Shown here: piece after piece, positions 12,923 through 41,369 of the stretch
How positions within the stretch are numbered: position 1 is the stretch's first letter
Layout: every line of letters begins with the position of its first letter
Assembly: GCA_010405405.1 (NCBI GenBank)
Contig: MU004230.1
Coordinates: 3,707,119-3,771,118 of the forward strand
DNA length: 64,000 nt
Direction: 5' to 3'
From: Microthyrium microscopicum
Taxonomy: Eukaryota; Ascomycota; Dothideomycetes; Microthyriales; Microthyriaceae
Notes under the pieces: model-generated
Databases searched by the model: none
Seen by the model: the letters and a program-made list of their open reading frames with translations, nothing else
What the model was told of the DNA's origin: nothing
Program-made: the position numbers and the translations under genes

Positions 12923-14137
12923 CTATTGAATGTAATAGTCGACTACTTCGTCTCCATACCATTTACGCCCAACATCTTTGTGGCTTCGTATCCATTTCCT
13001 AAGTTGTGACTCGCCCAAATTATCCCATCGCGGATCCAAGAAACTGGAAACTGCATTCTCGGTAGCTTCCTGGCCATCTTCGTCTCGTCTCATTTTCCGA
13101 ACTGCTTCTGGCACACAGCTTCTGATTTCTGAGACGGTGAGGTTGGGAGGCAATCCCATGAAGAATGGAATAGAGTAACGATCTCTTTCTGTCGGTGCCA
13201 CTACACGATGCACAGTTGCTTTGACTGCCCCATCAGTCGCCGCTTCAAATGGATTTGCGAAATTCACGACGAAGGTACCAGGGATTGGGTTAGCTGCAAT
13301 CCAGTTTCCATCCTTGTCCAATACCTCAAGACCCTTTTCTTGTCCAACCTGATGTAGAAAAGTGAGAAGTCCACTGGAGTCCTTGTGAGGACCAACTCCC
13401 TGTCCAACTTCATCATTGGTGGCGGGGTATTTTACCAACTTGATACGATGTTGTGATGGTAGATATGTCTTTCGAGAAGAAGTCTGAGAATATGAGGTGC
13501 TTGATGTGATAGAGTCAGAGACCTGTCGAGAGGTGTCAATTCCGAAGATTTGGTCGAAGGTGCCCAATGGGATATCGAAGGCTTCTTCTACAAGGTGTAG
13601 AAAACGATAAGATAGGTCAGCCAGAGCGTTGTGATAACTGTTTGAACGTGTTATTTCCTATCACTATCACAACTTTTCAAGTCATACAGCTAATTACCTC
13701 TCCAAAGCAGATCTGAAGCCCGGGAGCTCCTCCTCAGTTGGCCATTGGTTTGGACCTCGCAACCACCAGTAAAGTTTGGAGAAATCTTTGCCCTCATGGA
13801 TTTCATTATCGTCCTTGTCATATATGACGGGCAATTCAGTTGCATAATCGAACTGTTCTCTGAGGTCTTGTTGGCCCAAAGTCACCTCTTCCGCAAAGCC
13901 ACTGTAGCCCAGAAAGTGCGGCGAATTTGATTTTGATAGCCTTGACTTGCTAGAGTTGGCAATATCGAAAAGAGAAGGAAGCTTTTCTGACAAATCTGAG
14001 ATGGTCTCTTCCGGTACACCATGACCTTTGATGTATAGGAACCCGACGTTGAAGAGACAATCCTTCAGCAGATCCAGAAGGGCTTGCTTCTGATTTGGAT
14101 CACTTGCCAATCGGAGATCTAGGAGCGGAATAGTCAT
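12923..14137 (-). CDS. 2-oxoglutarate/Fe(II)-dependent oxygenase (isopenicillin N synthase-like)
   Basis: The model is two exons, 14137-13698 and 13637-12923, joined across a 60-nt GTAATT...ACAG intron. It encodes 384 residues, a usual length for this family. The N-terminal third matches the DIOX_N fold (opens MTIPLLDLRLAS, then GFLYIKGHGVPE). The C-terminal half has the catalytic jelly-roll: H231 and D233 in GPHKDSSG, H290 in ATVHRVVAP, and R300 in RYSIPF for binding 2-oxoglutarate. All metal ligands are present, so the enzyme should be active on a small molecule in the cytosol. It sits with the SnoaL-like gene at the transposon side of the cluster, on the same strand. Substrate is unknown. 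Membership in the cluster is inferred from proximity. Confidence 0.9.
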
Positions 14138-14839
14138 AATGTAATTTCTTCCGTGTACGTTTCAACGTTGGACTGCCTCTGGGATGGTTGGAGGAAGATG
14201 CAGAAGTTAGGTGAAGGTGAGCCCACAAGGCGAAGATCTAAGAGGTTAGAGCAGTTTCTCTCCGCCCACGAGATCTCAATGGCGTCATTATGGCGAATCA
14301 TTCCATGTTTGAGAAGTCAATGAAGCTTCATAAATCATTCACGATAATAAAAGATCACGTCACAACGACCGGACAAGTGCGACTAAATTTTTTATGTTGA
14401 AGTATTCCAAGGTTGGCAGTGGAGATTGCTCAACCAGAATGAACATTATTCGAATGCAAATCCTATTAACCTGACAATTAAACCAACAAAGACAGGCCTT
14501 GCTGCTTCATATTGATGTATTGTGAAGTCATATCCTTACTTAGTATATTTCATGTTACGATAATGCAAAGAGGCTAAGGAGGACTGAAGTGCTCAGTGAA
14601 CAGTACCCTACGATAGATGTTGACCTCAAGATCACTAAAACGATTGCTCAGTAAGAGACAATGCAATGGACCATTACAGACGTGTAGGCGACAGATCATT
14701 GGGTACATTGATTTTTAATCTATAACAACAAACATCTGCTGCTTTCTTCTGAGGCGAACCCTGTTCCTGCCGCGCAGCTTCCTCGAGACACATTCGAAGA
14801 GAGTCATCGTAACGCCATTCCAAGTAAATCTTTTGCAAA
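14138..14839. other. Intergenic between the 2OG oxygenase and the SnoaL-like gene
   Basis: About 700 bp hold the promoter of the oxygenase and the 3' flank of the SnoaL-like gene, which is transcribed in the same direction. No open frame, repeat or RNA gene is evident. Confidence 0.5.
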
Positions 14840-15652
14840 TTACTCTGACATTTTAAGGCCTGCCAAACCAGCGAGAGCAGGGCAAGAGTACTCTTTGAAC
14901 AGAGAGACTGGGTCGAACCACGTGTCTAGACGCTTGATGCGGTACTCGTCGTCTAGCTCCGCAACTGACACGCCGAATATCTCGACCAAACCTCCGTGGG
15001 CTGGAATGATAACTTCCTTGCCTTCGCTAGTAAAGTAGTTAGCAGTTATAGAAGGCTCAACACATGGAGCAGTACTCACCGGTTCTTGCCCTTATAGTCG
15101 GCCTTCATTTCTCCCCAGTGTCGCCATTTGAAAGCAGCCTTTGGTGGTCCACTATAGACCTCGATAACCTCCCAAGCAAAGGTAGGCATGCATCGCTTGA
15201 AGAGCTTGTGAGATTCGACAAAGTCGATATGCTCGGGGCTATAGTACTCATTCGGGCTGATTAGAGCATTGTAGGTACCAGTCTTCGTCATGCTCTCAAC
15301 ATCTTGGAGCTTCTTTCCGTTGACGTAGAACTCGTACTCAGTTGGATGAACAGTACGATACTGTTTGGTGTCTGTCTTGAAAGAGGCCTCGATCTCCCAG
15401 TTCTTGACTAGATTCTCGACAAGATTGGGCAGACTTCCGATTTGATGGTCTGCGGTCTTTGCTACTTAGGAATCAGCTTGTGTGCCTGTATAAACTGAGC
15501 TTAAACTTACTGCGTGATTGGTATTTGCGAGTGTTGGAATAGTCTGGGGCGCGACCAATGCGCCATGTCGCTGTATCTTTGCAGACTGCATCAGGATCAG
15601 TCATGAAGTCGGGTAAGGCTGGAGAAGCCTGAGCTTTGTTTCCGCTGGTCAT
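14840..15652 (-). CDS. SnoaL-like protein of the plant 'pathogen-related protein' type
   Basis: The model is three exons, 15652-15511, 15461-15080 and 15026-14840, with introns of 49 and 53 nt, giving 236 residues. The centre and C-terminus read like the NTF2/SnoaL fold of plant 'pathogen-related' proteins. Visible blocks are TGTYNALISP, ESHKLFKRCMP, FAWEVIEVYSGPPKAAFKWR, HWGEM, and near the end VEIFGVSVAELDDEYRI followed by a WFDP motif. The N-terminal WRIGRAPDYSNTRKY block is also typical. The family has no proven reaction. SnoaL relatives are polyketide cyclases or small-molecule isomerases, so a role in shaping an aromatic intermediate is possible. It is not a close match to scytalone dehydratase. 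It lies 700 bp from the 2OG oxygenase on the same strand. Family call is firm, function is not. Confidence 0.8.
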
Positions 15653-16808
15653 GGTGATTGATTGTGGTTTGTTCTTCGTGGAGTTGGAGTTGGGTTTGCT
15701 TGTTACACAATCGGGCTAGGTTGTGTCTATGTGGAATGTTGGTTCGAGAGTTGTTTGTGGGTCAAGCAGTCAGCTACAAGAACTTAAATACTTTAGCTTA
15801 ACGAATTGGGTGGAAAGAGTAGCACGGTTTCAGTGAATGTTTGCCTAGAAGTCACCAGTAGAGCTGTCACCTTAGCGGCATCACTGTGGTTGTTGAGGTA
15901 GCTAACCTTCAAGTTACATGGCAAGTGCTTATAGCACTACCTAAAAGACTAAAAGAGAAGTTGAAGATTATGTCACCCTAGCATTAACAGATATCTGGTT
16001 GGAGCCTAGCTCATGCACGCTCTTTCATAGAAGTGAAGGTTTTGCTTTGCCTTCCAGTTACATATGAGGAACTATATATTCTTAGAGACTTGGTAGTGCC
16101 ATGAGTGAAGTGATGGTCTATATGAGCTGCAAGAATTGTCAAGCAGGTAGTAGAGGCGGCATTGTCGAATACAATATTTGCAAACATTTTGATATGCCAA
16201 TCCAAAGTCACTTGCAAACGAGCATTTGATTGCTTCAATCGATTCTGTTGTAAATTTCAAAGAGATCTGTATTCAAGTCAGTGAACTTTCGAAATCTCCA
16301 GAAGCTTGTTTAATCTGTTTCGTTGGAGCTATTCTGTGACTTTAGTTTCGTTCTTGGCGGGAGTAACTAGAATCATCTATCTTACGCCAAAGTATACCTC
16401 TTGACTGCTGCAGGAGGGCGAACGTGGCGAGTTGTAATGCGAAGATGTTATTATGGCGTCTAAAAAACTCAAGAACTGTAGAGATATATCTCAAACAAGC
16501 TTCAAAAAGAAGCTTTCAGAGCTTTGTGCAGTAGTTTATCGATCTATACCACAAGTGGATAAAGTCATTGATATGATTTGTTGGAAGGATGAGACCAAAA
16601 ATAGCCAAAAGGACCTGCATGAGATGTGCATGATCGTCCTTCCGACAGTACATCTATGCTGCTTTTGGAGTTCCCAAAGGAGGAATCCGCTGCCATGATA
16701 TTCATACGGCGCAATCTTGTGGGTTTTGCGCGTCGATTTCATTGCCGTTAAAGCCGTCATGGCGACGTCGTTTTCTTTGAAGCATTACACGCCACATACA
16801 GTGTCGAG
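15653..16808. other. Divergent promoter region between SnoaL-like and multicopper oxidase genes
   Basis: About 1.15 kb separates two start codons facing away from each other, so it should hold both promoters. Overlapping open frames of 60-81 codons at 16.0-16.8 kb show no motif. No RNA gene was seen. Confidence 0.45.
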
Positions 16809-18832
16809 ATGCGGCTTTTTCTATTGCTCTGGCAGACTATGCTGGCCTACTCAGTCGCGAGTGAAAATGTATCTTTTACAGTCAACTTAACATGGGAAGA
16901 TGCCGCCCCAGACGGCGTTAGTAGGAAAATGATACTTGTGAATGGTACTTCACCCGGTCCAACTCTCTTCATAAACCAAGGAGACAGCGTCAAGGTACGA
17001 GAGCTGCTGAATACTCGCGACTCCAGAGTTGTAGGTAGCGATTCCATGGCTGACAAGATCTGTAGTTTCTAGTTTACAACAATCTGCCAACCAACACCAC
17101 AATACATTTTCATGGCATCACCCAGCTCAGAACGCCTTGGTCTGATGGTGTCCCTGGTATTAGTCAAAAGCCCATCCTACCTGGGGAATCGTTTCTCTAC
17201 CAATGGACAGCTGATGACTATGGCACGGTAACTTGCATGCCAAGCTCATCTACATGCTTTCACTAAAACTTCTCAGTACTGGTATCATGGCCATTTCCTC
17301 TCCGACATAAGCGATGGCTTGTTTGGTCCGATACATATCGATCCTGATCCCAAACAACTCCTTCCATATAATATCATCGACGAGTCAGAGACCGAAGTTG
17401 CGGCCATGACAAAAGCAGCAACTCATCCTCAACTCGTCACGATTTCAGACTGGAGCCACGTAACTTCAGAGGATATCTTTCGAGCGGAACTGGACACCAA
17501 TCTGGATCTGTACTGCAGAAACTCGATTCTGATCAATGGACGAGGCAATGTCAATTGCCTGCCTATATCGACGTATATGTCTCTCGCAGCGCCCGCAACA
17601 CTGCAGGCTCTGATTGGGCAGAACATCACTGCGCAAGGCTGCTCACCCCCTGGCATCTCCCTAATCGAAGGTGACTTTAAATTCAATCTGAGTGCTTTAC
17701 CGCCCGAACTATCATACTCGTGTGACGCGACCACTGTCGCTCCGTCTATATTCCATGTCCGCAGCGCCGATCGTTGGGCCAGCTTCAATTTCATCCTGAG
17801 CGCGTCAGTGCAGACGCCCATGATATCAATCGATGATCACGAGATGTGGGTCTACGCCGCGGACGGGTCTTTCGTAGAACCTCAACGCGTCGATGGTATG
17901 CTAATCTTCAGCGGGCAGCGTTACTCGGCCCTGGTTAGACTGAAGGATAATCCTGCTTTCGACACGTACACTATGCGCTTCTCCAATGTGGGCGGCAACC
18001 AAATTATCTTCGCTACGGCTTTGCTCTCCTACAATTCAAACAGTACAAATCTAGTTGTTGCGCCAGACTCTTATGCCCTCTATGACCAGGCTGGAAACGC
18101 AACCAACAGCTCAGCCGTCACCCTCGACCCGAGCACTCTTGTACCATATCCTGCAATCACGCCGGCGCAGCAAGCCGACGCAACGCACATATTCAAAGCC
18201 GGCCGCGCCGGAGCTGCCTGGCGCTGGACCATAAGTGCAAGTCCCCATTCCGTCTACTCTACCGTAAACAAAACGCTCAAGCTGACCAAATAACCAGGGA
18301 AATGCCTCATATCCAACCACCATATCAACTGACAATCCCTTGCTCTTTAATCCCAATGGTTCCACAGCTATGAACTCAAATCTCACGATCCGCAGCATCA
18401 ACGGCTCCTGGGTAGACATCATCGTGCTCACCGACCCAGGGAGTCAAAATCCCACTCAGCCACCACATTCATTCCATAAGCATAGCAACAAGCTCTTTAT
18501 CATCGGCAGCGGAACAGGCGACTTCAACTATACATCCGTCGCGGAAGGGATGCAAGTACAGCCCGAGTCCTTTAACCTAGTCAACCCTCCCTATCGCGAT
18601 AGCTTCATATCCAGTCCAGCCTGTAAGTCCAGACATTTTATTTCTCGAATGAAGCTAATGAATACAAGCTCCCGATGCACCTACCTGGATCGCTATCCGC
18701 TACCAAAGCATGAATCCAGGAGCCTTTCTCTTGCACTGCCACATCCAGCCGCATCTTGCAGGTGGAATGGCGATGGTCATGCTTGATGGCGTGGACAAGT
18801 GGCCAACAATTCCTGCCGAGTATGGCGGGTAG
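16809..18832 (+). CDS. Multicopper oxidase, Abr1/ferroxidase-like laccase
   Basis: Five exons: 16809-16994, 17066-17227, 17277-18263, 18298-18622 and 18669-18832, giving 607 residues. A leader [18 protein letters not shown] suggests secretion. All four copper blocks are present: H76-F-H78, WYHGH (H120, H122), H502-SFH505-K-H507, and H576-C577-H578 with H582. The axial position ten residues after the cysteine is M587, as in lower-potential oxidases. It lacks the extended N-terminus and C-terminal tail of asco-laccases, so it is a different type from the second oxidase in this cluster. Likely role: oxidation or coupling of phenolic product outside the cell. The gap between exons 3 and 4 is only 34 nt. 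It keeps the frame and has GT and AG ends, but is very short for an intron, so a frameshift there cannot be excluded. Confidence 0.85.
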
Positions 18833-19051: not shown

Positions 19052-21355
19052 TCACGAGTCCCCAAAGCCCATGGTCATTGCATGTAGATCGGGTGTGTTG
19101 ATATGGGAGGAAGAGGTCAAGAATGGTGAGATGAGAGACCCGCTATAGAGATCATCGGAAGAGGGGACGCTCGAGAGAACAGTCGGCGATGTCTGCTGCT
19201 CTTCTAGCATTGACCCGAAGACATCCCAGTTCATAGGATCGTTGTTGACCACTGTGCATGGGGGCTGGGCCATCATACTCTGCAGATTGTTGGTGAGTGA
19301 CTGGGAAATATCCTTTGCAGCAATAGATGTTGAGGAAAAAGATTCAAAGACAGCCTGGGCACGTGTGAGGGATTCTAGTGCCCGTGGAACCTTGGAGCCC
19401 AGATTGTCGGAATGGATGTAAGCCATGATTGTCACGGTAGCGTTCCACAGTGGCTGTAGAATCTCTGACCAGCCAAAGAGTACGTCGGATACTGAGCAGA
19501 CGGTGTGGGCTGTGTCGACAATGATTATTGCGTGGTGGAGAGCGCTTGATATGTGTACTTCTACGTGTGGCTGTTTAGAGTCTGGAGGAGTGATCATGCC
19601 GCAGTTATCGCCGGCATTAGGATAGCGTAGACGAATGAATGGGCGTTGGATGAGCGTGTACACATTATGGAAATGTAGCTCCAAGAGCACCGCTTGTCGC
19701 TGCAACCAAGCCGGTTTGGTGAGGTCACGACCAAATTCGAGACTCTCACTGTTGTCAGAGGCATTGCCAGCACGGCTTAGCAATAATTCTGGAGGCAGCT
19801 GGTCGTGCCAGACCTCTAGATCTCCGAGAGCTGAGGAAATGTCAAGGGCGTGATGTTCGATAGCAACCGGACTACTGCCGCCGTCGTCCACAAGGTCTGC
19901 AGTGGAAGCGCATGCGCCAAGATCTGACACAATGACAGCTAGTTTGGCCAAATGGTTGGAATATGTGCAAGCATTCACACCTTCTTCACGGTGGCTGGCA
20001 GAGGAGACATAGCGGGCAAGTGCATCCTCGGCAGGAAACGGACATCTGATGAGGCTCTTCTGGCTGGCCGCCGGCATATCGAGCTGTAGCGAGCACTGAA
20101 TGTCCAGGGAGAAGAGCATCCACCACAATTGCATATGAGCAGTCCTTTCGGCCTCGCTTAGGTGACTCGCTGGCGGTCGATGAAGTTTGGCAATGTAAGC
20201 CTTGCGGACAGTGATGCCAAGGAGATTGTAGGCTTCCCTAAAAGCATTACCTTTCATAAGATAAAGTGCCATAAGAGCGTGGCATCGTAGAGCCTCTAAT
20301 GTTACGTCTGTGTTGGTCCTCATGCGCTGACGACAGCGATGGAAATATTCAAGGCCAGGCCATGTGGCTTCCACTGGTGATGCTAAAGCGGAGTACTGCT
20401 GGGTGGATGGCTGAAGACCTAGTATTCTCGTAGCCATACCAGTGGCATGGCTATGCTGCATCCCTAGAGCAATCATAGAATCAGCTAGGGGGCTTCCGTT
20501 CATATATCCATCAAACATTGCGGGTGGTGGCAAGGTATCGAGCTCTACGAATTCTGATTCGCTAATGATTTGCAGAAATGGGTGGCAAGCATCCCAGAAG
20601 ATCCGAAGATAATAGCTCCGCTGGCTCTGGGACAGAGGGTTTGAGGCGAGAAAGCGACCTTCCGAGGGAATAGCAGGATGTGGGAGCTGCGCGAAGAGAC
20701 TGCCAGAAAGAGTTGAGGTGCTTGAGTGCGAGAAGGCTGGCAACCCACTGGCAAAGAAGCTCTGCGCGTGAGAGGCAAGATTAAAGGGCTCCTTGTGATT
20801 ACTTTCTGGTGGGAGTACTGTGGCCCACCAGTTCTCCTGGTCCATGGTCATGCCAGAGGGAACAGTAGATGAACTATTCGGGCTAATACTGGCTATGGAG
20901 CTGCTGTTGCTGGCGCTATTGCAGCCGCTCGAGTCATTGATTGACTGAGGGCAGTTAGGGGAGCCGGCATGCTCGGTAGAGCGAGTTGGTGATGGCGAAG
21001 GCGATGTTGAGGGGACCTTTGACGACGATTCAGCGGTGGTATATTCGGGATCGCCATTGTGTGCTTGAGAAAAGCGACGAGTAGCGTAGGACACAATGCA
21101 TTTTGCTTGGATGCCGACGCAGTTCGCGCAGGGTTTCTGCTCGTCACACTTGATACGATGCAGACGACACCTGTCACAGGCCCTGGCTGTCTTGTGCCGT
21201 TTGGAAAGGGGTAGAACTGTGTGTTCTGGACTAGAGTTGGAGTTGGAGATGGAGGTGGTATGTGCGTTGCTATTTTTCCGAGAGGCCTTGGAACGAGCCG
21301 ACCCGGAGCCGGAGCCTCTAGACTTTGCAGGCGTGGCAGGAAACCTGTGAAACAT
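19052..21355 (-). CDS. Zn2Cys6 transcription factor with fungal-specific domain
   Basis: A single exon encodes 767 residues. The zinc cluster is canonical: C60, C63, C70, C76, C79 and C86 in the C-x2-C-x6-C-x5-C-x2-C-x6-C spacing, preceded by the basic stretch SKRHKTARA. A long Ser/Thr-rich linker follows. The middle region (FHRCRQRMRTNTDVTLEALR, then LHRPP and AHMQLWWMLFSLD) resembles the fungal-specific transcription factor domain (PF04082). It is a nuclear DNA-binding regulator. It lies between the first oxidase and the FAD monooxygenase, inside the cluster, and shares a 1.8-kb upstream region with the monooxygenase. It is the obvious candidate pathway activator, but its targets cannot be read from sequence. 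Confidence 0.92.
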   Translation of the reverse strand: MFHRFPATPAKSRGSGSGSARSKASRKNSNAHTTSISNSNSSPEHTVLPLSKRHKTARACDRCRLHRIKCDEQKPCANCVGIQAKCIVSYATRRFSQAHNGDPEYTTAESSSKVPSTSPSPSPTRSTEHAGSPNCPQSINDSSGCNSASNSSSIASISPNSSSTVPSGMTMDQENWWATVLPPESNHKEPFNLASHAQSFFASGLPAFSHSSTSTLSGSLFAQLPHPAIPSEGRFLASNPLSQSQRSYYLRIFWDACHPFLQIISESEFVELDTLPPPAMFDGYMNGSPLADSMIALGMQHSHATGMATRILGLQPSTQQYSALASPVEATWPGLEYFHRCRQRMRTNTDVTLEALRCHALMALYLMKGNAFREAYNLLGITVRKAYIAKLHRPPASHLSEAERTAHMQLWWMLFSLDIQCSLQLDMPAASQKSLIRCPFPAEDALARYVSSASHREEGVNACTYSNHLAKLAVIVSDLGACASTADLVDDGGSSPVAIEHHALDISSALGDLEVWHDQLPPELLLSRAGNASDNSESLEFGRDLTKPAWLQRQAVLLELHFHNVYTLIQRPFIRLRYPNAGDNCGMITPPDSKQPHVEVHISSALHHAIIIVDTAHTVCSVSDVLFGWSEILQPLWNATVTIMAYIHSDNLGSKVPRALESLTRAQAVFESFSSTSIAAKDISQSLTNNLQSMMAQPPCTVVNNDPMNWDVFGSMLEEQQTSPTVLSSVPSSDDLYSGSLISPFLTSSSHINTPDLHAMTMGFGDS

Positions 21356-23157
21356 AGTGGATCAAAGTTTGGACGTGTTTGAGATGCTGGAAAAATCCCA
21401 AAGGAGCCGCCGGAGCAATTGTTATACGCGTAAAGGGATTTGGCGTGGCAGTGATCGTGGCGATGAACTCAAGGCATATACAAGGTTGTAAGCTCAAGCA
21501 ATTAGCAGCAGCGCCAATCGAACTTTGAGATAGGTACAGGTGGGTAAGATGGAGGCCACGACCTGTATGCGTAAGATGGGATATGAGGTCAGACCAGCTA
21601 CGGTGCCGGTAGAAGATACAGAAGTTAGCGAGAAAGATCGGCGGTGCAGGGCCAGCACGGGACAAAAAGGTGCCTTCATATCATTCTATTGTTTGCCGTT
21701 GGCAGAATGGCATTGAACCCCTAGAGTAGGAGTTATATAGGGACACTTTCGGGCTCATAGCTTAAATGCTTGGACAGTTCCGACAGTAAAGCTGCGTACT
21801 ACGTAGTACAAGATATTCCTGGTCAGCCTTGAGGCGTACTGCAACGGCTGATGCACCGGTAAGAGATTGCTGTGATCATCCAAGGGCCAAGGGTGGTGGG
21901 TACACATTCACGAACAGGGGATCTGATGCTTATCATGGGTTGCTAAACTAGTATTGGTGTTTAGGCTGTAGTTAGGAAGCGGGAGGACGGGAGGATTCTG
22001 GTAAAGAGCCCCAACGGCAAAACCCAATTACCTGGGATCTCGAAAGCATCGATGATCTAGCAAGGTATATGCCGCTACGGAGTATCTCCTAAGGTTATCA
22101 GCTGTCAATATTATGTATGATCAGCATCCTTCTCAGTTTATCTTTAGATGCACATCAGACCTACAAGGCGCGACGAAGTTCAAGACTTGCATTCTTTCAT
22201 CTCCTGCCAAAGGACCTCGTAGTTACAGAGCCATTGCCGGATCTTCTTCGATAGTATAGTCGCAGCCAGTGATGAATCAGTTAGGAATGGACACCGTGTG
22301 AATAGTAAGGTACAAAACCAACACTAGTACAGTATGGTTATACTAGAAATGTAGGGATACTGCAGATAGATTTGCGAGCTCCCGTTCGTCCTGCCCGTTT
22401 CATATTCGTAGATGCCCGGTACAAGGTCGCTGCTGCATATGCCAACTTTGTTGTTGGTATGAGATGTACAACTTTTTGGATGGCAGGGCTCGTAAGGAAC
22501 CTGCTCGATGGAACCTGGAAGCAGGAGAGTGTTTTGGAGTAAGACAAACACATCTCGTACCTCCCCCACGCCCGCATCTTGATCTCCCCCACGTTTACCA
22601 CGCCCCCTTTCAGATCGACCAGGATCGACTTGAATTGTTCGTACAACACCACAGACACTTGCCATGTACCTGCTGTTTACAGCATCTCCGGCATCAACCT
22701 TTCTACATAGTGTACTCACACAAAAGCAATCGACTCAGATCTACTCTGCACCTCGGGGCCCGACTCTCCTTTTGAAATTTGAACGCTCCTTATGCACTGA
22801 GGCCGAGGCCTAACTTGCTGGACTGCTAGTCATCAGCACTACGCAAAAGTGACATCACAATGCATTCAATGCTCTCTGAACATACAAAGTGCTCCTCTTG
22901 GTTTCTCAGACTAGCCCGGAAGCATTATGCGGTTGCCTTGCTTGAATTACCCAAAGGAGGTCAACCTCCTGCACCTCCATCTGCTCAGCTTGTTCATTGT
23001 CTGCACAGTGCAACTCCCCAAACCGTAGAGGTAGGTACTGCCTGTCTAAGCAGTACTCAAGTGCGTCTCAAGCATTGATAGACAATGCTTGTATCCTCTA
23101 ATATCTTGGTTGAGCCCGATTCACTTTCGATTTTTCCCGCCGCTATCAGAAGCAAGT
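21356..23157. other. Divergent promoter region between regulator and FAD monooxygenase
   Basis: About 1.8 kb of non-coding sequence lies between two head-to-head start codons. Open frames of 61-131 codons overlap on both strands and show no domain. A CCGCTACGG word near 22,073 is an everted CGG pair with a 3-nt gap, weak as a Zn2Cys6 site. No RNA gene was found. Confidence 0.45.
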
Positions 23158-24849
23158 ATGGCTGACCTGCACGCAGCCGACGGGGACCTGAGCAAAGTCA
23201 GCAGCTCTGTCAGTCCATACCAACTTCATCTCGTTATCATTGGAGCCGGTCTCGCTGGTCTTTCAGCTGCCATCACTACCAGTCTCGAGGGCCACCGCGT
23301 CACCGTGCTTGAGAAGGTTTCGCAGCTCCAGGAAGTGGGTGCTGGTCTCCAAGTCACGCCAAATGCTACCCGCCTTCTGAAGCGTTGGGGGCTTTTTGAT
23401 GGCTTACGGAAACGAGCTGCTGAGCCTTCGTCCTTGACTGTCCGCAGGTACGATGGCACTGCTGTGCTCGCTCAAGAGCATAACTTCCAAGAGAAGATGC
23501 AAGAACGATACGACGCGCCGTTTTGGGATCTCCATCGGGCGGACTTGCAGAGGGCTCTAGTTTGTCGAGCGATCGAGCTTGGCGTTGAAATGCGACTCGA
23601 TTCTGAAGTAGTTGACATCGACTTCGCAAAGACGAACGTCAGGCTGAAGGGAGGAGAGTTGGTGCATGGAGACGTACTGCTGGCTGCAGACGGCCTATGG
23701 TCGCGCAGCCGAAGTCTTTTCATGCAGAAAGATCTCCTCCCGAATCCAACCGGCGATTTGGCTTGGCGTATCATTCTCGATCTTGATGATCTGAAGGACC
23801 CAGAGCTTGTGGAGTGGGTGTCGAAGCCAACCGTAAATTTCTGGATCGGTCCTTATGCGCACGTTGTGGGTTATTCTGTCAAGGGGGGGAAGCAATTCAA
23901 CTTGGTACTTCTCTCACCTGATGATCTTGGAAAAGATTTGAGCAGAGCGCAGGGTAATCTCGATGAGATGAAAAAATTATTTGCAGCATGGGACCCAATG
24001 TAAACAAACCCCTTTTAACTTGTTCCAGGAGAGAAGGAGCTGACCGCCCTAGATTAATAAAATTTCTTGACTGCGTACAAAGTGTGGACAAATGGAAATT
24101 AATGCACAGTAAGTCGCTGCTCAAATGCTACAAAGCTACATTTTAACAATTTTAAAGGTCCCACGCTTGACAATTGGAGAAACGAGGAGAGTAACTTTGT
24201 CATGGCGTGAGTCAACATGTCTTCGTTCCCGACGCAATTGACAACTCTCCAGAGGCGACGCCTGTCACCCAATGCTTCCTTATCTTGCTCAAGGGGCCAA
24301 TTCTTCTCTCGAAGATGGTGCTGTACTCGGACGACTCCTTGGCCATGTCAAAGTAGCCGCCGATATTCCAAACGCCATTAAATTGTATGAGGACTTGCGT
24401 AAAGAGAGAAGCCGCTCCATCGCCCTCGAAACATTCAAGCAGGTCTGTCCTTCCATTGACCTTTGATAATCGCATGGCATGCTGACATAACCATAGCGCG
24501 AAGCCTTTCACATGCCTGACGGGGAGGAGCAACAACAACGAGACGCCATTTTCGCCGCTGCGTTAGAGAGTGGGCCGGTACCTTCCTTCAGTAGTCGCTG
24601 GTATGTGCAAGATAATTCCCTAGTTGCTTGGTAACTCACATTCGTGGAAAATCGTAATGCTAACCAACAACTGTCAACAGGACGTGTCCGACCTTTCAGC
24701 CGTGGCTGTACGGTTACGATGCGTATGCTGATGCTGACCGAGCGGTCAGCGCGGTCAAGCCTGCAGTGGAAGGTTTAATGGGCCAACTGGCATCTATGAT
24801 GAGGCGACTGATCGAAGGATGGCACGGTTTTCTACGCAGACTATGGTAG
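23158..24849 (+). CDS. FAD-dependent monooxygenase, salicylate hydroxylase-like
   Basis: Six exons: 23158-23999, 24053-24108, 24158-24206, 24253-24442, 24497-24600 and 24681-24849, giving 469 residues. The start at 23158 is preferred because the Rossmann fold follows soon after. An in-frame ATG at 23089 would add 23 residues. The GAGLAG dinucleotide motif is at 29-34, the mid-protein DG motif reads AADGLWSRSRS, and the second FAD block G317-D318-ACHP is followed by MLPYLAQGANSSLEDG. Group A flavin hydroxylases of this type add a hydroxyl to an aromatic acid using NAD(P)H and O2, often with loss of the carboxyl. In a PKS cluster it may convert the released aromatic acid to a hydroquinone, as reported for the oosporein hydroxylase. 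The substrate here is inferred only. Confidence 0.88.
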
Positions 24850-29130: not shown

Positions 29131-29569
29131 ATCAACCTTACGACTTCGCTACCTGCTAGCAGCGAGGTGAAAATGGTTGATAATGGTCCCTACCAGAAGT
29201 ACCTCCTAGGCGTCATCTTATTGGCTCAGTCTGTGCTGAAGGATGCGGAACGATGCCAAGAATTACTCCTTTGGGGAATTCACGCTAAATGATTGGCAGG
29301 GCAATTGCCTAATGCAGTAATATGTCACCGGAATGCTTAGAAAGAATCCAAGATCTTCACTTTTTTTGCTGGGAAATGTTTGTAAGTCCCGGACTCATGA
29401 CTAATGCAGGCACATCACCAACTTGCCTAAGCTGTGCAGCCGCGGAGATAATTCAGCACAAGATCTGTCCAGCAGAAGCCAAAGATCTCCACGAAACAAT
29501 ATGACCTCTATACAACTCGAGACTTATTGAAATCACGACTGTCATCAGCTTTGACAGACAGCAAGAGCA
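29131..29569. other. Divergent promoter region between nitroreductase and MFS pump
   Basis: About 440 bp separate two outward-facing start codons. A 60-codon open frame at 29322 shows no motif. No repeats or RNA gene were seen. Confidence 0.45.
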
Positions 29570-31671: not shown

Positions 31672-34600
31672 TCAAACAGACCCCTCCAAAATAGCACATG
31701 CCTTTACCACACTCTCCGACACCTCGCGAATATTCGCCGCATCAAAGACTTTAAAATGGTTGCCAGGGATATCAAAACAACGCACCGAAGATCCAATCAC
31801 CTCCTCCCAGCCCCACACCGCAGTCCTCGGGTCCGATCTATCCTGCAGCCAAGCATTCTCCACAGACTGGGGATTCATGACAGCCCGCGGATCGCTAGTA
31901 TCCCCATTCCGCCGCCAGCCATCTCTTGAGCGAAGCAAGATGGCAGGCGGTGATGGACGATGCGAAAAGTGCGTGGGCCTATGCGCGCCCAAAAGGTCTG
32001 CGCATGATAAAAAACTTTGACGTGTGAGTTCGCGGATGACATTGCCCATTGCGTTTGGTGAACTTTTCCCATTTCCAGTGACAGCTTCAATGATATCAGG
32101 GGAGAGAGGCTGATGGTCGAGTGGGGGCGGCGAGTCGATTAGAATGACGCCTTTGACGGCCTGTTCCAATGATGTTAGGATCCTTGCTACTTCAAAAGCG
32201 ACGACGCCACCAAAGGACCAGCCGCCGATGAGGCAGGGGCCTTCGGTGGTACGGCGAATTGTGTTTGCGTAGTTGGCAGCCATCTGGCGGAGGCTGGACC
32301 ATGTATCGGCAGTGTCAGTGAATTTGGGATCGTGTAGGGCGTAGGCTTGGCGGTGAAGTGACTGCAAGCGGTGGTATTGCATGCAGACACCGCTGCCATC
32401 GTGAACGAGAAATAGAGGTAGAGCGTTGGAGTCTGCAGCGGTGCTGGTTCTGATAACTTCAGGCTGCTCGGAAAGTTTAAGAGCACGTTCCACCTTTTTC
32501 AGCATTGCGGTATCAAGCTTGATATCGGTTTTTGGTGATTTCGGAATGTCGAAGTCGGCAGAAAGATCTATGCCAGAGTCCTTGCGGGAGCTGTTCTGTA
32601 ATGGAGACTCCGTTACTTCTTTGACTTGTTTTTGTGTGCCGTGCTATATCAAATGAGTGTTAGCCAAGCACGAACCTTTCAAAACAACGGACTCGGCTTA
32701 CACCTAGGAGATCTCTGGCAGAGCACATACCAGTCTTTCGACGTCGCCAACCGTGCGACATATCGAGAGGTTTGCGGCTGATGTAGACTTTCCATCCTTG
32801 TAAATCTCCTCCAGACGAGATGAAAGTTCAAATATCATAAGAGAATCAATTCCGAGATGCTGCAAATCTGAGCTTGAGGAGATAGCATCTGGGCTGATGC
32901 CACAGGTATCGGCGATGATGGCAGAAACGTCGCTCCTGCTGCTAAGGGTGCTGCTTGGGGAGCTTGGGGAGCCTGGGGAACCAGGAGAGCCGGGCGTGCT
33001 AGGGGAGCTTGAAGTCGTGAGGCCTGGAGGCGGAGTGATTGACTCGGATGGAGAGACTGAGGAATCGAAAAGTCGCTCAACGTCCCCAACTGTCTGGCAG
33101 TCCGCCAAATCTGAGATACTGGCCTGGGGAAACTGTGTTGCAAGTTCGGCTTGTAATTCGATCATCATGAGTGAATCAAATCCAAGACTGTCAAGGCTTG
33201 CAGCTTCTGATAGTGCCAATAAATCCATGCTGCAAGTGTTCGCAATCATGGCCCTGACCGATGGACCAGATGCAGCAGGTAGCAATCTCGGGACTGGAGT
33301 CCGAGCCGAAGGAGCATGAGACGATATAGTCACCGCGACTTCCGGCTTGCTGACTGAGCCACCCGAAAGCTTCTTTGCAGCAATGGCGAGAGCTCTGCCA
33401 ATCTTTGTGAGTTCAATTTGCTGAAACTCCATGCCTTTGAATACTGCCAGGACTCCTTGAGAGTCGAATGCATAGGCATCCGCAATTGTCAACCCCTCGC
33501 TTGCAACATTGTTAAGGGTACCTATAATGTTAGACTACTGCATAAACATTGGAAGCCGTGCTACTTACAATGTACTTCAAAGGCGTCCCCAGGAGCGAGA
33601 GACCTCTGAATAACAGTGGCAGACGCGACACCCTTACACATGCACAGAATCTGAGTACCAACTCTGACATTTGCAGCAAAGCCTGCCACATGCAACAAGA
33701 CATCCATGAAAATGGCGTTTGCAGCAGGTAGACTCGTAGTACCTAGGCGATTGTCTGGGTATTGGCATATGGCGTGGGTGTCTCCAGTTGCTTCGTCGAT
33801 GCGAATTGACTGCACGCGCTGATATGGCTCGGAATAAGTGACCACGCGTGTAAAGACCATTTCATACATGGCTCGCTTCATAAAGATCTCCTGCTCGGCT
33901 CTGTTTACATTTGACAGGATTTGCTCTGTTTTCCGAGATAGCATGGGAGCAATACGGGCGTATTTCGTCTGCAACGTCTGGTTTAACTTGCGCTTCAAGA
34001 CTCCCTTGCAGTGAGAAGTGGTGTGATGTGGATCAGATGTGTTGTAAGAGAGTATGTCAAATCCGTAGGATATTCGAGAGTCGTTGAGAGGTTTGAGAAC
34101 AACTCTGACCTGCAAAACTTTTAGTACGAAAGAACTTGTACGACCACAGCGACCAGAGAAAATCGGAACTTACCGTTATAGAAGCATCATGGTACAGCAA
34201 TGGTGCAACGTAGGCAATCTGAGACAGACTCCACACATGACTCTGTTGCGATTCTGGCTCAAGGTCCTTGACTGCCGACAGTGCAATCTCATGGTAAACT
34301 GAAGCGGGACATAGCGCATGTTCCGCAACGAGATGGCCTGTGATAAAATCTTTGAGCAGGTACAACGGTGTGTCGTATATCGCAGACCCATCATCCAAAG
34401 TCGGCTGGCTCACTGTTTCAGCGATGAAGCTATCACGTCGAATATCGGGCTGAGCAGCCTCAAAGTCGACCTTCTTTGTTGTGGCTTCCGACGGATAGTG
34501 AACGCCAAACTCTTGCTTCGAGAATGGGATGCCAGGGAGATCAACCAAGACCGGACTGGATTTGCCAGCAAAGGCATTTCGCCAATCACTACCACTGGAA

Positions 34601-37600
34601 GTTGTGTATAAGTTACACAAGAGCTGTGCCAAGGTGGTAGAAGGTGAAGTGCCTTTTCGGAGAGTAGGTAGGAGGCTAACCGACGCTTTGTCAACGCATT
34701 GGCCCAGCATAGGAAGTAACGAGGGGTGCGGGCCAATCTCAATCCATCTGGTTGCTTCAGATCCAGTGTTGGTAGTGAGAAAGTCTTGAACGCCTTTGTG
34801 AAAGTTTACCGTCTGTCGGCAGTGTAGTGCAAAATACTCTTTTGTAAAGGCAGTTTGACCAGCCTCAACAGCGCGTCCAAGCACGTTCGAGACAACAGGG
34901 ATCTTGGGCAGACCTAATTCAATAGTGGTAACAAACTGAGTAAGCTCATCGAGGATAGGGTCTACTGCCTTGGTGTGATAGGCCATAGGCACATCGAGCA
35001 GCTTGCTCTTGACCTTGAGGCTCTCTCGCAGATGATCCTTGAAAGTTTGGAGTTCCTCAGCTTGGCCACCAACAACGCAGTCATTTACACCATTGTCGCA
35101 TGATATTGATAGACTGGGGAAGAGCTTGGATGTCTGGACCAAGCCTTGTACAGTGGAGGCGCCAGTGTTGACAGCGAGCATGGAAGTCTTCTGAAGCTCA
35201 CATTTCTCCATCATCAATTGCGCACGACGAGCGACAAGACCAAGCCCGCTGAGTATATCGAGAACTCCAGCAGTGACTAGAGCAGCGTATTCGCCAAGGC
35301 TGTGGCATTACAGTTAGCAAAGGACTTGTTACACACCGAAGAGCCTCACCTGTGGCCTACAACGGCAGTGGGAACAATGTTCCAGGAAATGAGAAGCTCC
35401 GCAAGGGCAACCTCCAAAACATATATTGCCGACTGGAAGGCTTGTAGCTTTTCACCCTCTGTTAGATCCTTGAGAGCGTTTTCGGTCTCAGTAGCGGTGA
35501 TAATTTGGACACATCCAGGATAGTTGCGCTCTTTGAGATATGCGTCGCACTTCCAAACGGTTTTGGCGAAGCTTTCGTATGTTTCCATAAGCTCAGCACC
35601 CATTCCCAAGTACTTTGAAGTGTTAGCAATCAGGACTAAGACGAGAGGCAGTTTCCAAACTTACCTGTGATCCCTGTCCAGAAAATGCAAAGACGGCATT
35701 TGGCTCCTTGTTCGCCGACTCGGAGATGTGGTGAGGTATTGCTGCCCTGAGCTTCTCCGCCAAATCATCATAGGAGGTGGCGACTACTGCGATACGCATA
35801 TCGTATATTTGGCGGCGGCTTGTGCTTGTTGCACAAATATCCCGGAGCGAGAGACTTTTTCCATTTTCCATAATATATGAGACGAGGTCATCGCGAAGTT
35901 GTGTTAGAGAAGCGATGCTCTTGGTAGAGCATCCAAACACATAGCTGAGCGGGCTCTTGCTTCCTGCCTCAACGGGTGGTCCTGATGGGATATACTCTTG
36001 TAAAAGTACAGCTCCATTTGATCCTCCAGCACCAAAGTTGTTCAGCATTGCCATGCGTGGCTTACCATCGATTTGTGGCCACGAGGCTCCATCTCGGCTG
36101 ATCACAGCACCATCATCGCCAAGGTTTCGGATGCGTGGGTTCAACACCTTGAGGGAGATTTGAGAGGGGATGTGGCTGTGCTTCATCATCAGGACAAGCT
36201 TCGCCAGGCCGGCAGCGCCAGATGCGGCTTCACAATGACCAATGTTTGCTTTGATGGATGTCAAGTGAAGAAGATTTTCCGGTGATCTGTCCTGACATAG
36301 AACGCGCCGCACACTCTCTAGCTCCACTGGGTCACCAGCTTGGGTACTGTCCAAAATTAGATTAAATGCTCCGCATAGAGATAACGGCAAATACTGACCC
36401 AGTGCCATGTAGCTCAATCGCAGTGACCTAGCGATATGTCAGTAAAGGCGTCTACTTTGAAGGAATTCAATAGAGCTTACCATGTGAGGGTCAATTCTGG
36501 ATTTTCGGAACATGTGCTTGAATAACTCCTCTTGAGTAGGAACATGAGGATGCGTAATAGAGTGCGTGTTGCCGCTCTGATTGATTTCCACCGCCTTGAT
36601 GATTGCATGAATGCGATCGCCATCTGCTATGGCATCACTGACTCTCTTGATAACAAAAGCGCCACAGCCCTCAGCACGACAGTACCCATCAGCAGAGGCA
36701 TCAAACGCTTTGCACTGCCCTGATGGGCTCAGAAAGTGCGCACGGTCAAGGCCTAGATACATGTCGGGGCTGGTAATTGTGTTGACGGCACCAACAAGCG
36801 CAGAACGGCAATCTCCTGCAATAATTGATCTGGCGGCTTGATGTAAGGCGACTACAGAAGATGAACAAGCTGTGTCCAGGGTAATGGACGGACCACTCCA
36901 GCCAAAGACGTAGGAAATGCGTGCACTCTGAAATGTACGCAGTGTACCTGGGCTGTAATAAACATCGATATCGTCTTTCATGTTCGCAGGATAATCTAGC
37001 GTGGCGTTGCCAATCCAGCACCCAAAGGTATCACGGTCAGTGGAAGGCGTCGTGTCCGGCACGTAGCCAGAGTTCTCAAGTGCTCTGAATGCTGTCTGCA
37101 GCATCACGCGCTGTTGCGGGTCCATTGAGCGCGCTTCACGTGGGGATATGTCGAAAAGCGCATTATCAAACTGGAATGGATTCTGAAGAAAGTTGCCATA
37201 TCTGGTACCGAGGGTACGATTAGAGCTGCCCTTTTTCTCGCCCTTGGCGTGATAAAAGTCGTCGATGTGGAATCTTGACTCTGGTATCTATTTGGGTAGC
37301 AGATCAGTGACTGGACAATCAAAAGTGGGACAATATATTGCCATACCTCAGAGCATGAATTCACGCCGCCAACCAAATTTGCCCATAATGACTCAGTATC
37401 TGGTGCGTCTGGCAGATCTACCGCCATGCCAACGATTGCAATATCATCTGCGGCCAGCGTGGAAGCTTCGCTGTATGATTTTCGGGAGCCAGCGAGCGCA
37501 ATTACATCTAGGACTCTTACGTTCCTCGGAAATTTGAATGCAGATGTTGACATGCCATAACCGGGTCCCATGTTTAAAATTTCGATCTCCGCTCCTGCGG

Positions 37601-38636
37601 CAGATGAAGCAGAAGCCTTCTGTACATCAGCGAAGATGGAGTTTTGGACAGACACCCAGTCGACAGGCTCAAGCATGATCATTTCCAAAATGTCACTGAT
37701 TATAGCGCCTGCGTTCTGCATTAGTTTGTGAATAATCAACAATCAAAAGTTGTGCTTACCAAGTGGTTTTGTGTCTTTGTAGTTAATTTGTTTGCCATCA
37801 ATCGTGGATAGTAAAGGAGCAGCAGAAGTAATAGATGTCGACATTGAGGGACATCGCTGCATAAGATCTTCATATATGTTTTGCTTGAGAGGAGCTAGTT
37901 CATCGCGAACATGGTAGAGGGAAAGCACGTTGGTCGATCGTGTGCGGCACTCGGAGGGAACGTGTTTGGAAATGAATTCCTGGAGCTTTTCACCAGTCCC
38001 ACTCAGGGTCACACAGTTCGGCGAATTGATAGCAGTCACGAAGACTGTTTGATCAGACGTCGATGTCGAGGCAGCAATGATGTCTTCAGCACGCTTGGCT
38101 GTAATACCATCAATGACAATGCTCCATGGGCTGCTTGGAATACAGGCGTGGTGGCTCAAGTAAGATTTGCGATAACTTTCGCTGCGGATGCCGAGCCAGA
38201 CGGCAACGTAGAACAGGTCTTGAGCTCTCGAGAGGAGTTCAATCGAATTGCGAGAGGTCGAAACCACGGTGGCAGGGAGGAGTCCAGCGCAAAAGCCAGC
38301 GGCTTCGAGTAATTGGCCATGTTGTTGTGATTGGCCGAGGTATCTTAGGATCTGAGAGAGATAAAGGGTTGAGTGTTGTACCAGCACGTTTTGATAATAG
38401 CATTCCTTGGGGGCGAGGAGTTTTGAGGGAGTATCGAAATCCCGGAGGTCGACATCATGAGAGAGAATGCCGGACTGGATGGCATGGGAGATTTCAGTGT
38501 GGAAGATGTTATGGCAAGCTTGTAAGAGAAGTTGGGACTCTGGCAGCAAGGCATCGCGAGCTGAAGCGTCTAGAGATAGCTTGGAGAAGAGAACATCGGA
38601 GCCAAGGCCGGCAAAGACAGGGACGTGAAAAGACAT
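31672..38636 (-). CDS. Non-reducing polyketide synthase, SAT-KS-MAT-PT-ACP-ACP-TE
   Basis: Ten exons: 38636-37760, 37708-37347, 37287-36481, 36427-36399, 36346-35665, 35612-35350, 35299-34174, 34109-33569, 33521-32731 and 32643-31672, giving 2149 residues with the frame kept at every junction. Domains in order: starter transacylase with C116 in GFCAG; ketosynthase from about 381 with C554 (DTACSSS), H689 (HGTGT) and H729; malonyl transferase with S1007 (GHSLGEY) and H1115; product template with H1329 and D1518 ([10 protein letters not shown]); two carrier domains with S1679 and S1789, joined by a Gly-Ser-Pro linker; thioesterase with S1969 (GWSFGG), D1996 and H2122. All catalytic residues are intact. 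The enzyme builds an unreduced aromatic polyketide and releases it as an acid or ester. The double ACP plus plain TE is shared by orsellinic-acid, naphthopyrone and THN synthases. The TE opening (LFLVHDGSG) differs from what I recall of the melanin type. Exon 4 is only 29 nt. Confidence 0.95.
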
Positions 38637-38872: not shown

Positions 38873-39018
38873 AGGAACGATATAGAGAATTGCCTAAGAC
38901 GGTTAGATCGAGATCATCCTCAGTCGGGAGAGATCGATTGTGGCGAGAGACATGTTAGCACGCCGTTAAGGCGTTCCCCAAGGAGAAATAGTCCGGGAAG
39001 GTTTGGAATCCTTCTGAT

Positions 39019-39030
39019 CCGTCGCGACGG
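39019..39030. promoter_or_regulatory. Perfect palindrome CCGTCGCGACGG (CCG-N6-CGG)
   Basis: A 12-bp perfect palindrome has CCG and CGG half-sites six bases apart. Everted CGG pairs are a known site class of Zn2Cys6 dimers, and a Zn2Cys6 gene lies in this cluster. A second CCG-N6-CGG word is upstream of the laccase. Each alone could be chance. Confidence 0.3.
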
Positions 39031-39655
39031 GCCGGGCCTAACCACGTTGACGTTCAATTTCCATGAAGCTCAACTAACTGATAGGTGGGTGCGGCGTTCT
39101 GCATTTCGGCCTGCTCGAGCTGCGACGATGCGGCCTGATGTCATTTTGCTGGACTGAGATTAGTAATTGCTCGATTCAGACTCCTTGTGGACTCAGTCGT
39201 CTAATTCGGAAGCAGATGGTGATAGAAAGGTACGATATACAGTGAATCATGAAGTTAGGAGGTTGATGTTGTTTAGCCTCCTCCCACGCTACGAATGTGG
39301 GGGTTCCAGGGGGAAGGGGTAGTGACGTCCTGCCATCTTCCCTGGCCTAATTTCCTCCCATCTCCCTACTTTCTCTTGATTTATCGTGTTATTACCTGCG
39401 TATGGACATGAAGATATCGACAGAGCAAAAGCAAAAGCCATATGTCTCTCCAGTTGCTATAGATAGTTCTGAAGTGCTTGGCGCCTCCACTGTCAAATGC
39501 GGCCGTTGTCGGGCCTAGCCTTAACTACTAATAGTGAATTCTATGCACGTTCGAGTCATCTTGTCAAGGTCGGGTAGGGCGCGCCATGATGCGACCATTG
39601 ATACTGCCAATTGTTGCAATGGCTGGAACTTGAACTACAAAAATTCACCGCAAAG

Positions 39656-41369
39656 ATGAGTGTTCAAACGGTAACAGAAAGCGATGTCTACGAACTTCAA
39701 GATATTAGTGCTCATCGAGGCTATTCGAGAGCCAATATCGATGGACCATCGACCCCTGGAAATGAGATACAAAGAAGTAGACGCAGTCTCTCCTACGCAG
39801 AAGGCGACAATGCGGTACTTAATTCTACCTCGACGGCCAATTCTCAGCGAGCGATTGGTGACACCACGCCAACTAACTCAAAGAGGGCGATCTTGATTAT
39901 ACTCCAACTCGCCATGATCACTTCATTGAGCTCACTGTCCTCTGGTATCATTACCGTTGGCCTGCCGCAGATAGCCAAAGACGTGAATCTTGAAGAAAGG
40001 CTATACTTGTGGCCATCGTCTGTCTTTTCCCTGACAGCGGGTAGTACACTCCTGTTAGCTGGCGCTGTCGCTGATATCGTGGATACACGATTGATGGAAC
40101 TTACAGGGTGCACTTTACTCGGGATCTTCACTCTAGCACTTGGATTCAGCCAAACTGGTATCCAGCTTGTCGTCTTTCGAGCTTTGCAAGGCATCGCAAT
40201 AGCTATACACTGGCCGTGTAGCGTTTCGTTGGTAGCTCAATACATACCAAATGGAAAAGCCAGGAATATTGGATTCGCTTGTCTCGGACTGGCTATGCCA
40301 CTAGGATTCTCCGTAGGACTACTCCTCGGCGGCTTTCTTGTCGACTCGATTGGCTGGAGAGTGGGTTTCTACATCACTGGTGCCATTATGCTCGTGCAGT
40401 CGTTCACTGGGTATAGAATCGTCCCGGCAGGACCCAAAGCTCACAATATCATGTCTAGGCTCTTGAAAGAGCTTGATTGGATCGGCGCCATGATTGCCTG
40501 TTCAAGTCTTGCCATGTTCTCATATGTGCTTGCGATCTTGAGCGCAGACAGCGACAATATACGAGAGCCTTCCGCCATTACAATGCTAGTCTTCAGCACT
40601 GTGCTCATGATCAGCTTCCCAGTATGGATGAGATTTCAGGAAGGTAGAGGTCGGCCTGCTTTGGTTCCAAATAAGCTATGGAGGAATCTGCCCTTTACCT
40701 CCATTTGCGTCATGACAATTTTGACAACCGGTGTGCAAAATGCAAACGAACTATTTTCAAGCTTGTAGTAAGTTCGAAATAATGAAAATAACATCAAAGT
40801 ACCTACTAAACAATCGCAGCTTCCAAGAGGTACAAGAGCTCTCTGCTCTTCAAGCATCTCTTCGACTCATGCCTTCAACTGTCATCGCTATTTTCTTGAA
40901 CTTCACAACAGGTTCTCTCATCCATCGGACTCCAGTGTTTTGGCTTATGCTGATTTCCACTATCTTAACCGCTGGCTCTCCACTTCTCATGGCATTGATC
41001 AATCCAGCATGGTCGTACTGGAAAGGTGCATTCTTCGCCCAGTCACTTGCACCACTTGGTGGCGACATATTATTCACTGTCGGCTTACTTATTGTGAGTG
41101 AAGGCTTTCCAGACAAAACACAGGCACTTGCTGGCGCGGTCTACAGTACACTGTCCTTTTTGGGCGTCTCCCTGGGCACCAATCTAATGCAGGTTGTCTC
41201 ACTCTTGGTTACCAAAGGAACGCAATATCGGGACAAGTCTTCACCAGGCGCGCTCCTGCAAGGTTATCAAGCTAGCTTTTGGGCTATGTTTGCACTCACT
41301 ATGGCTTGCTTAGTGATCTGCTTTTGTGGTCTTCGAAATGTTGGGAAGATAGGTCTGAAGCGAGAGTGA
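39656..41369 (+). CDS. MFS transporter, 14-TM (DHA2-like) type
   Basis: Two exons, ending at 40767 and running 40820-41369, joined across a 52-nt intron whose donor splits the Tyr codon of the SSLYFQEVQ motif. From 39656 the protein has 553 residues. An in-frame ATG at 39611 would add 15. The N-terminal 85 residues are polar and cytosolic. Membrane helices begin at AILIILQLAMITSLSSLSSG. The VFRALQGIAIA block and the later YFQEVQELSALQASLRLMPS block are typical of fungal 14-helix pumps in secondary-metabolite clusters. It is divergent from the PKS and shares its promoter region, which suggests co-regulation and a role in product export. It is the last plausible cluster gene on this side. Confidence 0.88.

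Follow-up and report, generated by a model that had tools for sequence, protein, structure and literature searches.

Copper oxidases can couple hydroquinones into bibenzoquinones of the phoenicin and oosporein type. In the oosporein cluster of Beauveria (OpS1-OpS7), OpS5 is a laccase, OpS6 a glutathione S-transferase (GST) and OpS7 a cupin; for phoenicin, an orsellinate polyketide synthase (PKS), a decarboxylative hydroxylation and a coupling step would be enough, and the additional ring hydroxylation that oosporein needs is not required. Clusters for tetrahydroxynaphthalene (THN) and for naphthopyrones combine a non-reducing polyketide synthase (NR-PKS) with a laccase and an Abr1-like multicopper oxidase. 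As outlined in PMC8952764, the oosporein cluster comprises OpS1-OpS3 (NR-PKS, major facilitator superfamily (MFS) transporter and Gal4-type regulator) plus four further enzymes, and OpS4 is described as converting orsellinic acid to 6-methyl-1,2,4-benzenetriol by decarboxylative hydroxylation (PMC5794859). None of the 12 papers listed in a search of the open-licence literature deals, by title, with phoenicin biosynthesis.

We analysed a 64,000-nt stretch of the Microthyrium microscopicum genome (C1:3707119-3771118, hereafter the window; the assembly has 36.9 Mb in 20 contigs), whose intron structure and gene content show the source to be a filamentous fungus. Ten genes (g1-g10), among them an NR-PKS (g9), were modelled between window positions 12923 and 41369. 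On balance we lean towards reading them as an intact secondary-metabolite cluster, the predicted product of which is an orsellinic-acid-derived, oxidatively coupled quinone.

Gene set and enzymes of the cluster

Genes were modelled with an exon-chaining predictor from window position 9000 to its end. All 20 models obtained are computed predictions, and four of them (g1, g3, g5 and g6) were corrected by eye from the DNA. Pfam was run on the models prior to this correction and covered 19 of the 20 proteins, g15 (a short model that overlaps g14 on the opposite strand) being left out. Nine of the ten cluster genes are backed by Pfam. The modelled set agrees with the limits 12923-41369 proposed in the initial annotation, eight of whose nine gene labels were upheld by the models and Pfam. 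The oosporein-like core that it had described is also found together according to Pfam: NR-PKS, MFS transporters (g8 and g10), Zn2Cys6 regulator (g4), flavin-dependent (FAD) hydroxylase (g5) and laccase (g6). The label that was not upheld is 'SnoaL-like', which had been attached to a 236-aa protein (g2) without any family match: Pfam returned nothing up to E = 10, no NCBIfam family was matched, the PDB gave nothing meaningful (best E 0.068, an importin) and in its own genome g2 matches itself alone. A pattern scan of bacterial and archaeal genomes matched 12 stretches, among which no relative was confirmed. Fungal 'pathogen-related proteins' of the NTF2/SnoaL kind are similar, a resemblance that none of these searches showed.

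The domain order of g9 is SAT-KS-MAT-PT-ACP-ACP-TE, with no methyltransferase matched in Pfam or NCBIfam. Its coding sequence has no internal stop and nine introns of 47-87 bp, all with GT/AG ends, and what we take to be the active-site motifs are recognisable in every domain. A broken PKS was considered and rejected, the apparent stop in the KS match being the site of a 59-bp intron (37288-37346). Two peculiarities of the gene were observed: a 29-bp mini-exon (36399-36427) that encodes the portion of the KS motif HGTGT with the catalytic His, the remainder following after a 52-bp intron, and an 18-bp tandem repeat (32956-33008) coding for part of the Ser/Pro-rich linker between the two ACPs. 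The same domain order is given for orsellinic acid synthases, e.g., ArmB and OrsA, in PMC11088548; with a TE present and a methyltransferase lacking, g9 has the architecture looked for in an orsellinic-acid synthase of group I or VIII, for which PMC5386248 and PMC5591372 were also drawn on.

To place the enzyme, its KS was compared in a tree of ten sequences, in which the named members are PksA and CTB1 (group IV), no named member of groups II or III being included, and in which C9, C4 and C12 are NR-PKSs of the same genome with products not established. These five KSs stand on one side of a branch with 100/100 support and g9 stands outside. Approximately unbiased (AU) tests reject g9 joined to C9 and C4 (p 2.7e-5), to C12 (p 1.5e-4) and to PksA and CTB1 (p 3.3e-5). 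The KS of g9 is 40-43% identical to the five and 40% to the bacterial CurL; among themselves the five are 52-86% identical, with the C4 and C9 enzymes at 86%. According to PMC5386248, groups II and III are closely related, group IV stands closer to group III than to group II, group V has no TE, most members of VI and VII have a methyltransferase, and OrsA belongs to group I and ArmB to group VIII. KS placement and domain order together would thus put g9, by elimination only, near group I or VIII, which hold the orsellinic-acid synthases. The initial annotation had named a KS within a THN or naphthopyrone clade as the outcome that would speak against it; since the KS of g9 lies outside the clade of C9, C4, C12, PksA and CTB1, that assignment was rejected on the tree and AU tests just described. 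A pattern scan of viral contigs for relatives of g9 matched 13 stretches, none of which was confirmed.

The PT domain of g9 scores 161.6 bits against TIGR04532, slightly below the cut-off of 168, and those of the other three NR-PKSs of the genome (C9, C12 and C4) score 350-392 bits. Nine residues after the catalytic His of this domain g9 has Pro where PksA has Thr. Pro is reported to replace Thr1354 in all C2-C7 PT groups in PMC5386248, and its presence in g9 is consistent with orsellinate without being specific to it. The length of the TE lid loop was tried and dropped as a marker of chain length: the lid of g9 hardly differs in length from those of C9 and C4 and therefore says nothing on this point.

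The closest solved relative of g5, a group A FAD monooxygenase, is 8gsm, '4-hydroxybenzoate decarboxylase' (E 4e-111, 43% identity), followed by 8x38, 'Decarboxylative Vanillate 1-Hydroxylase' (E 1.3e-87, 38%), and 8r2t, 'FAD-binding domain-containing protein' (E 1.2e-81, 38%). The two best relatives with reaction names in this PDB search are decarboxylating 1-hydroxylases, which matches the kind of reaction described for OpS4 (PMC5794859); TropB, SorC and AfoD match far more weakly (E 2.6e-16 to 7e-13). These relationships are read from identities and E-values rather than from tree order, as the g5 tree contains a wrong-frame row (own_L032, 16% identity, branch 9.07) and a long-branched one (own_L035, 2.26). 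A para-hydroxyl is common to orsellinic acid, 4-hydroxybenzoate and vanillate. Fungal MNX1 is described as a 4-hydroxybenzoate 1-hydroxylase (decarboxylase) in PMC12915361. The nearest relative of g5 overall is a paralogue in its own genome (C7:2353856-2355277, locus L052; 52-54% identity), which is perhaps a catabolic 4-hydroxybenzoate 1-hydroxylase. As this paralogue is equally close to 8gsm (43%), family alone leaves the substrate of g5 unfixed.

Two copper oxidases accompany these enzymes. g6 is a full-length asco-laccase with the four Cu motifs and a C-terminal DSGI; its PDB match is 3sqr (E 1.4e-192), which we take to be the Botrytis aclada enzyme. g3 shows the four Cu motifs once its introns are corrected, and has an N-terminal hydrophobic stretch. 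Its nearest paralogue in the genome (44%) and a laccase, their families assigned by eye, both adjoin the C4 NR-PKS; this type of oxidase thus accompanies PKS loci at least twice in the genome. That locus (C4:2160920-2180746, L022-L024) has a pigment-type look, with a single-exon NR-PKS, the g3-related multicopper oxidase, a laccase and an MFS transporter, all families except the PKS being assigned by eye. Among the remaining enzymes, g7 is a nitroreductase of the Frm2/CinD kind (8cqv, 2.5e-47; 2wqf CinD, 7.6e-34; 4urp Frm2, 1e-23), and the 2-oxoglutarate (2OG) oxygenase g1 has 9ovh as its best PDB match (E 2.4e-25).

A word shared among the promoters

The initial annotation had named a lack of co-expression of the FAD monooxygenase and laccase with the PKS as an outcome that would refute it. 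As a stand-in for expression, the promoter stretches of the cluster were searched for common words. In an initial search of six stretches the 10-mer CCCAAAGGAG was present in three, with four copies; after the long g4/g5 stretch had been cut in two, it was found exactly in four of the seven stretches compared (g2/g3, g4, g5 and g7/g8). A one-mismatch copy, CCCCAAGGAG, lies in the divergent promoter of g9 and g10. When the stretches were shuffled 400 times with dinucleotides preserved, the best 10-mer was shared by two stretches in 342 shuffles, by three in 58 and by four in none. A second control drew seven stretches from intergenic DNA elsewhere; 52 of 300 draws passed a no-overlap filter, and in these the best 10-mer was shared by two stretches in 37 draws, by three in 15 and never by four. 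In this intergenic DNA, 28.9 kb in all, the word itself does not occur. The whole genome (36.9 Mb) holds 78 exact copies, compared with 32 of the word read backwards, and four of the 78 lie in the cluster, inside a span of 12.6 kb. Four copies from elsewhere were inspected (C5:1942494, C5:1943209, C5:2173612 and C2:995081), and all four lie inside gene-model spans.

The shared word suggests co-regulation of the PKS, the FAD enzyme, the regulator, the second multicopper oxidase and the nitroreductase/MFS pair. The promoters of g1 and g6 lack it even with one mismatch allowed, an argument against a regulon that comprises all ten genes; the laccase is thereby linked to the cluster by position only, and the membership of g1, an edge gene, is uncertain. 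A wider form of the word, TCC-N4-GGA, was dropped: it is present in the g2/g3, g4, g6 and g9/g10 stretches and missing from those of g1, g5 and g7/g8, and occurs ten times between 12 and 64 kb of the window. For the oosporein regulator, PacC-type sites are described in PMC9769838. CCCAAAGGAG offers a cheap handle for defining the regulon of g4 and for asking if the laccase belongs to it.

Proposed route and alternative readings

In the route that we propose, g9 would assemble acetyl and malonyl units into a tetraketide, close it between C2 and C7 in the PT domain and release orsellinic acid through the TE, as suggested by the order of its domains, the position of its KS in the tree and a single residue of the PT. 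Judging from its relatives, g5 would then hydroxylate the carbon to which the carboxyl group is attached and release CO2, yielding 6-methyl-1,2,4-benzenetriol. The secreted laccase g6, the multicopper oxidase g3 or both would oxidise this hydroquinone and join it into a bibenzoquinone of the phoenicin or oosporein type. More speculatively, g7 might act as a quinone reductase, and g1 and g2 might tailor the product. Export would be carried out by g8 and g10, and g4 would switch the genes on, perhaps via CCCAAAGGAG. A more specific version, which we regard as possible but doubtful, is that the product is an undescribed quinone: two copper oxidases would couple the orsellinate-derived hydroquinone in sequence or at different sites, and reduction by g7 and modification by g1 and g2 would leave part of the coupled quinone non-aromatic or altered in its ring. 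We found no cluster combining a nitroreductase with a laccase and an NR-PKS, or a nitroreductase with orsellinic acid, in the open-licence literature. If the coupled-quinone reading is right, the locus is a naturally occurring variant of the oosporein scheme, with the same first two steps and a different finishing set. It would then serve to examine the diversification of bibenzoquinone pathways and the contribution made by a nitroreductase and by a second copper oxidase.

Several observations weigh against this reading. The placement of g9 in group I or VIII is by elimination, in a tree without an orsellinate synthase, and g9 could conceivably be a group VI-like enzyme without the methyltransferase; the Pro of its PT domain cannot separate orsellinate synthases from those for THN or YWA1 (groups II and III). 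Given its C7 paralogue, g5 could act on another substrate. As for the promoter word, it is missing from the laccase and g1 promoters, it was discovered within the very promoters in which it was counted, with the g4/g5 stretch entering twice, and a 9-mer reached four stretches in 8 of the 400 shuffles. In addition, five other one-mismatch copies are present in the window, one within g8 and four outside the cluster, to its right. The initial annotation, which had interpreted the locus as making a hydroxylated aromatic that is oxidatively coupled, is therefore sustained in part: KS placement, domain order, the family of g5 and the shared word agree with it, the laccase promoter does not, and the 'SnoaL-like' label was not upheld.

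Part of the set could be a chance neighbourhood, the laccase and the 2OG oxygenase being unremarkable secreted or edge genes, with the true cluster limited to g2/g3-g5 and g7-g10. This is compatible with the other readings, and we regard it as possible, though doubtful. The promoters of g1 and g6 fit such a division, but g6 sits between g5 and g7, both with the word upstream, and the neighbourhood changes at both ends, the genes past g10 being of other kinds (as judged from the five of nine scanned that have a Pfam match) and the left side being AT-rich.

Rather unlikely, in our view, is a monomeric end product, in which orsellinic acid or a near relative would be decarboxylated by g5 and end as a benzoquinone, an epoxyquinone or a reduced, terreic-acid-like cyclohexenone, g7 and g1 tailoring it and the oxidases merely making the quinone. 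A nitroreductase and a 2OG oxygenase, which we judge superfluous for a simple coupling pathway, would find a use there, the laccase promoter lacks the shared word, and terreic acid follows the same decarboxylative hydroxylation logic in the account of PMC5794859. Such a route leaves two copper oxidases to be explained, one of them (g3) with the word in its promoter, and no P450 or GMC oxidase like AtE or AtC was found among the 19 scanned proteins.

It is improbable that the carboxyl is kept and that the cluster makes a resorcylate or a depside (a lecanoric-acid-like ester or diaryl ether), g5 not being decarboxylating. Outcomes vary in this FAD enzyme superfamily; the two best reaction-named solved relatives of g5 nevertheless decarboxylate. 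A capacity for cross-coupling is reported for the TE domains of group I/VIII PKSs in PMC5591372, but there is no second PKS among the gene models of the window. A melanin-like, laccase-dimerised THN or naphthopyrone pigment is more improbable still: a multicopper oxidase and a laccase next to an NR-PKS are typical of such clusters, and the C4 locus, with the closest paralogue of g3, has that look by eye, but the KS placement, the AU tests and the weak PT score of g9 speak against it and no short-chain reductase or scytalone dehydratase was matched in the 19 scanned proteins.

Genomic setting and relation to described clusters

The coordinates of genes, g9 domains and promoter words are collected in Table 1.

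Table 1. Features of the locus, in window coordinates
Feature	Position	Strand	Basis or remark
g1, 2OG-Fe(II) oxygenase, 384 aa, 2 exons	12923..14137	-	DIOX_N 3.2e-22, 2OG-FeII_Oxy 2e-17 (values from a model differing slightly at the C-terminus)
g2, no family match, 236 aa, 3 exons	14840..15652	-	gene model
g3, second multicopper oxidase, 598 aa, 5 exons	16809..18832	+	Pfam Cu-oxidase domains
g4, Zn2Cys6 regulator, 767 aa, 1 exon	19052..21355	-	Zn_clus 1.7e-9, Fungal_trans 5.2e-12
g5, group A FAD monooxygenase, 469 aa, 6 exons	23158..24849	+	FAD_binding_3 4.7e-21
g6, asco-laccase, 612 aa, 7 exons	25273..27409	-	Pfam; PDB 3sqr
g7, nitroreductase, Frm2/CinD kind, 214 aa, 1 exon	28339..28983	-	Pfam 1.3e-18
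g8, MFS transporter, 515 aa	29570..31117	+	MFS_1 4.8e-38
g9, NR-PKS, 2149 aa, 10 exons	31672..38636	-	Pfam, TIGR04532, motifs, KS tree
g9 SAT	37911-38525	-	span including introns
g9 KS	36151-37448	-	span including introns
g9 MAT	34642-35694	-	span including introns
g9 PT	33388-34389	-	span including introns
g9 ACP1	33070-33258	-	span including introns
g9 ACP2	32740-32934	-	span including introns
g9 TE	31690-32418	-	span including introns
g10, second MFS transporter, 553 aa, 2 exons	39656..41369	+	MFS_1 7.1e-36
CCCAAAGGAG, g2/g3 promoter stretch	16673..16682	+	136 bp before g3 start
CCCAAAGGAG, upstream of g4	21397..21406	+	
CCCAAAGGAG, upstream of g5	22950..22959	+	
CCCAAAGGAG, g7/g8 divergent promoter	29266..29275	-	
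CCCCAAGGAG, g9/g10 divergent promoter	38976..38985	+	one-mismatch copy of CCCAAAGGAG

The start of the cluster directly adjoins an AT-rich block (window 1-11000) that resembles the outcome of repeat-induced point mutation (RIP). G+C content is 20-22% across the first 10 kb and 43-54% from 12 kb onward. The RIP-like signature is extreme over positions 1-8000 (TA/AT 1.6; (CA+TG)/(AC+GT) 0.06), and the same ratios are 0.54-0.80 and 1.2-1.5 from 12 kb onward. CpA and TpG have nearly gone from the block, which also contains 20-21-bp minisatellites at 10493-10740. Another NR-PKS of the genome (C12:376363-383069, L020; PT 376 bits) is likewise followed by AT-rich DNA, with 18-24% GC from about 386 kb. 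To the right of g10, nine proteins were scanned against Pfam; five matched (RNA methyltransferase, Arb2, acyltransferase, HET and PIF1 helicase), four had no match, and none of the nine is a secondary-metabolism enzyme by Pfam name. A search of the assembly for 5.8S rRNA, with an Rfam model, by which 39 of 1125 candidates were scored, and with a conserved 32-base word, found none, and rDNA may be absent from it.

Compared with described clusters, the locus shares NR-PKS, laccase and multicopper oxidase with those for THN and naphthopyrones and differs from them in KS clade. With the terreic acid cluster of Aspergillus terreus it has in common a PKS-made acid that undergoes decarboxylative hydroxylation by a FAD enzyme, as set out in PMC5794859. 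That cluster differs in its partly reducing 6-methylsalicylic acid (6-MSA) synthase and in having P450s and a GMC oxidase in place of copper oxidases. The likeness to the oosporein cluster extends to the NR-PKS, MFS transporter, Gal4-type regulator, decarboxylating FAD hydroxylase and laccase. No GST or cupin domain was found at E <= 0.001 in the 19 scanned proteins from window position 9000 onward, and the second multicopper oxidase, the nitroreductase, the 2OG oxygenase, g2 and the second MFS transporter are additional here. In its first steps the predicted pathway is oosporein-like but, by its gene set, the cluster is not an oosporein cluster.

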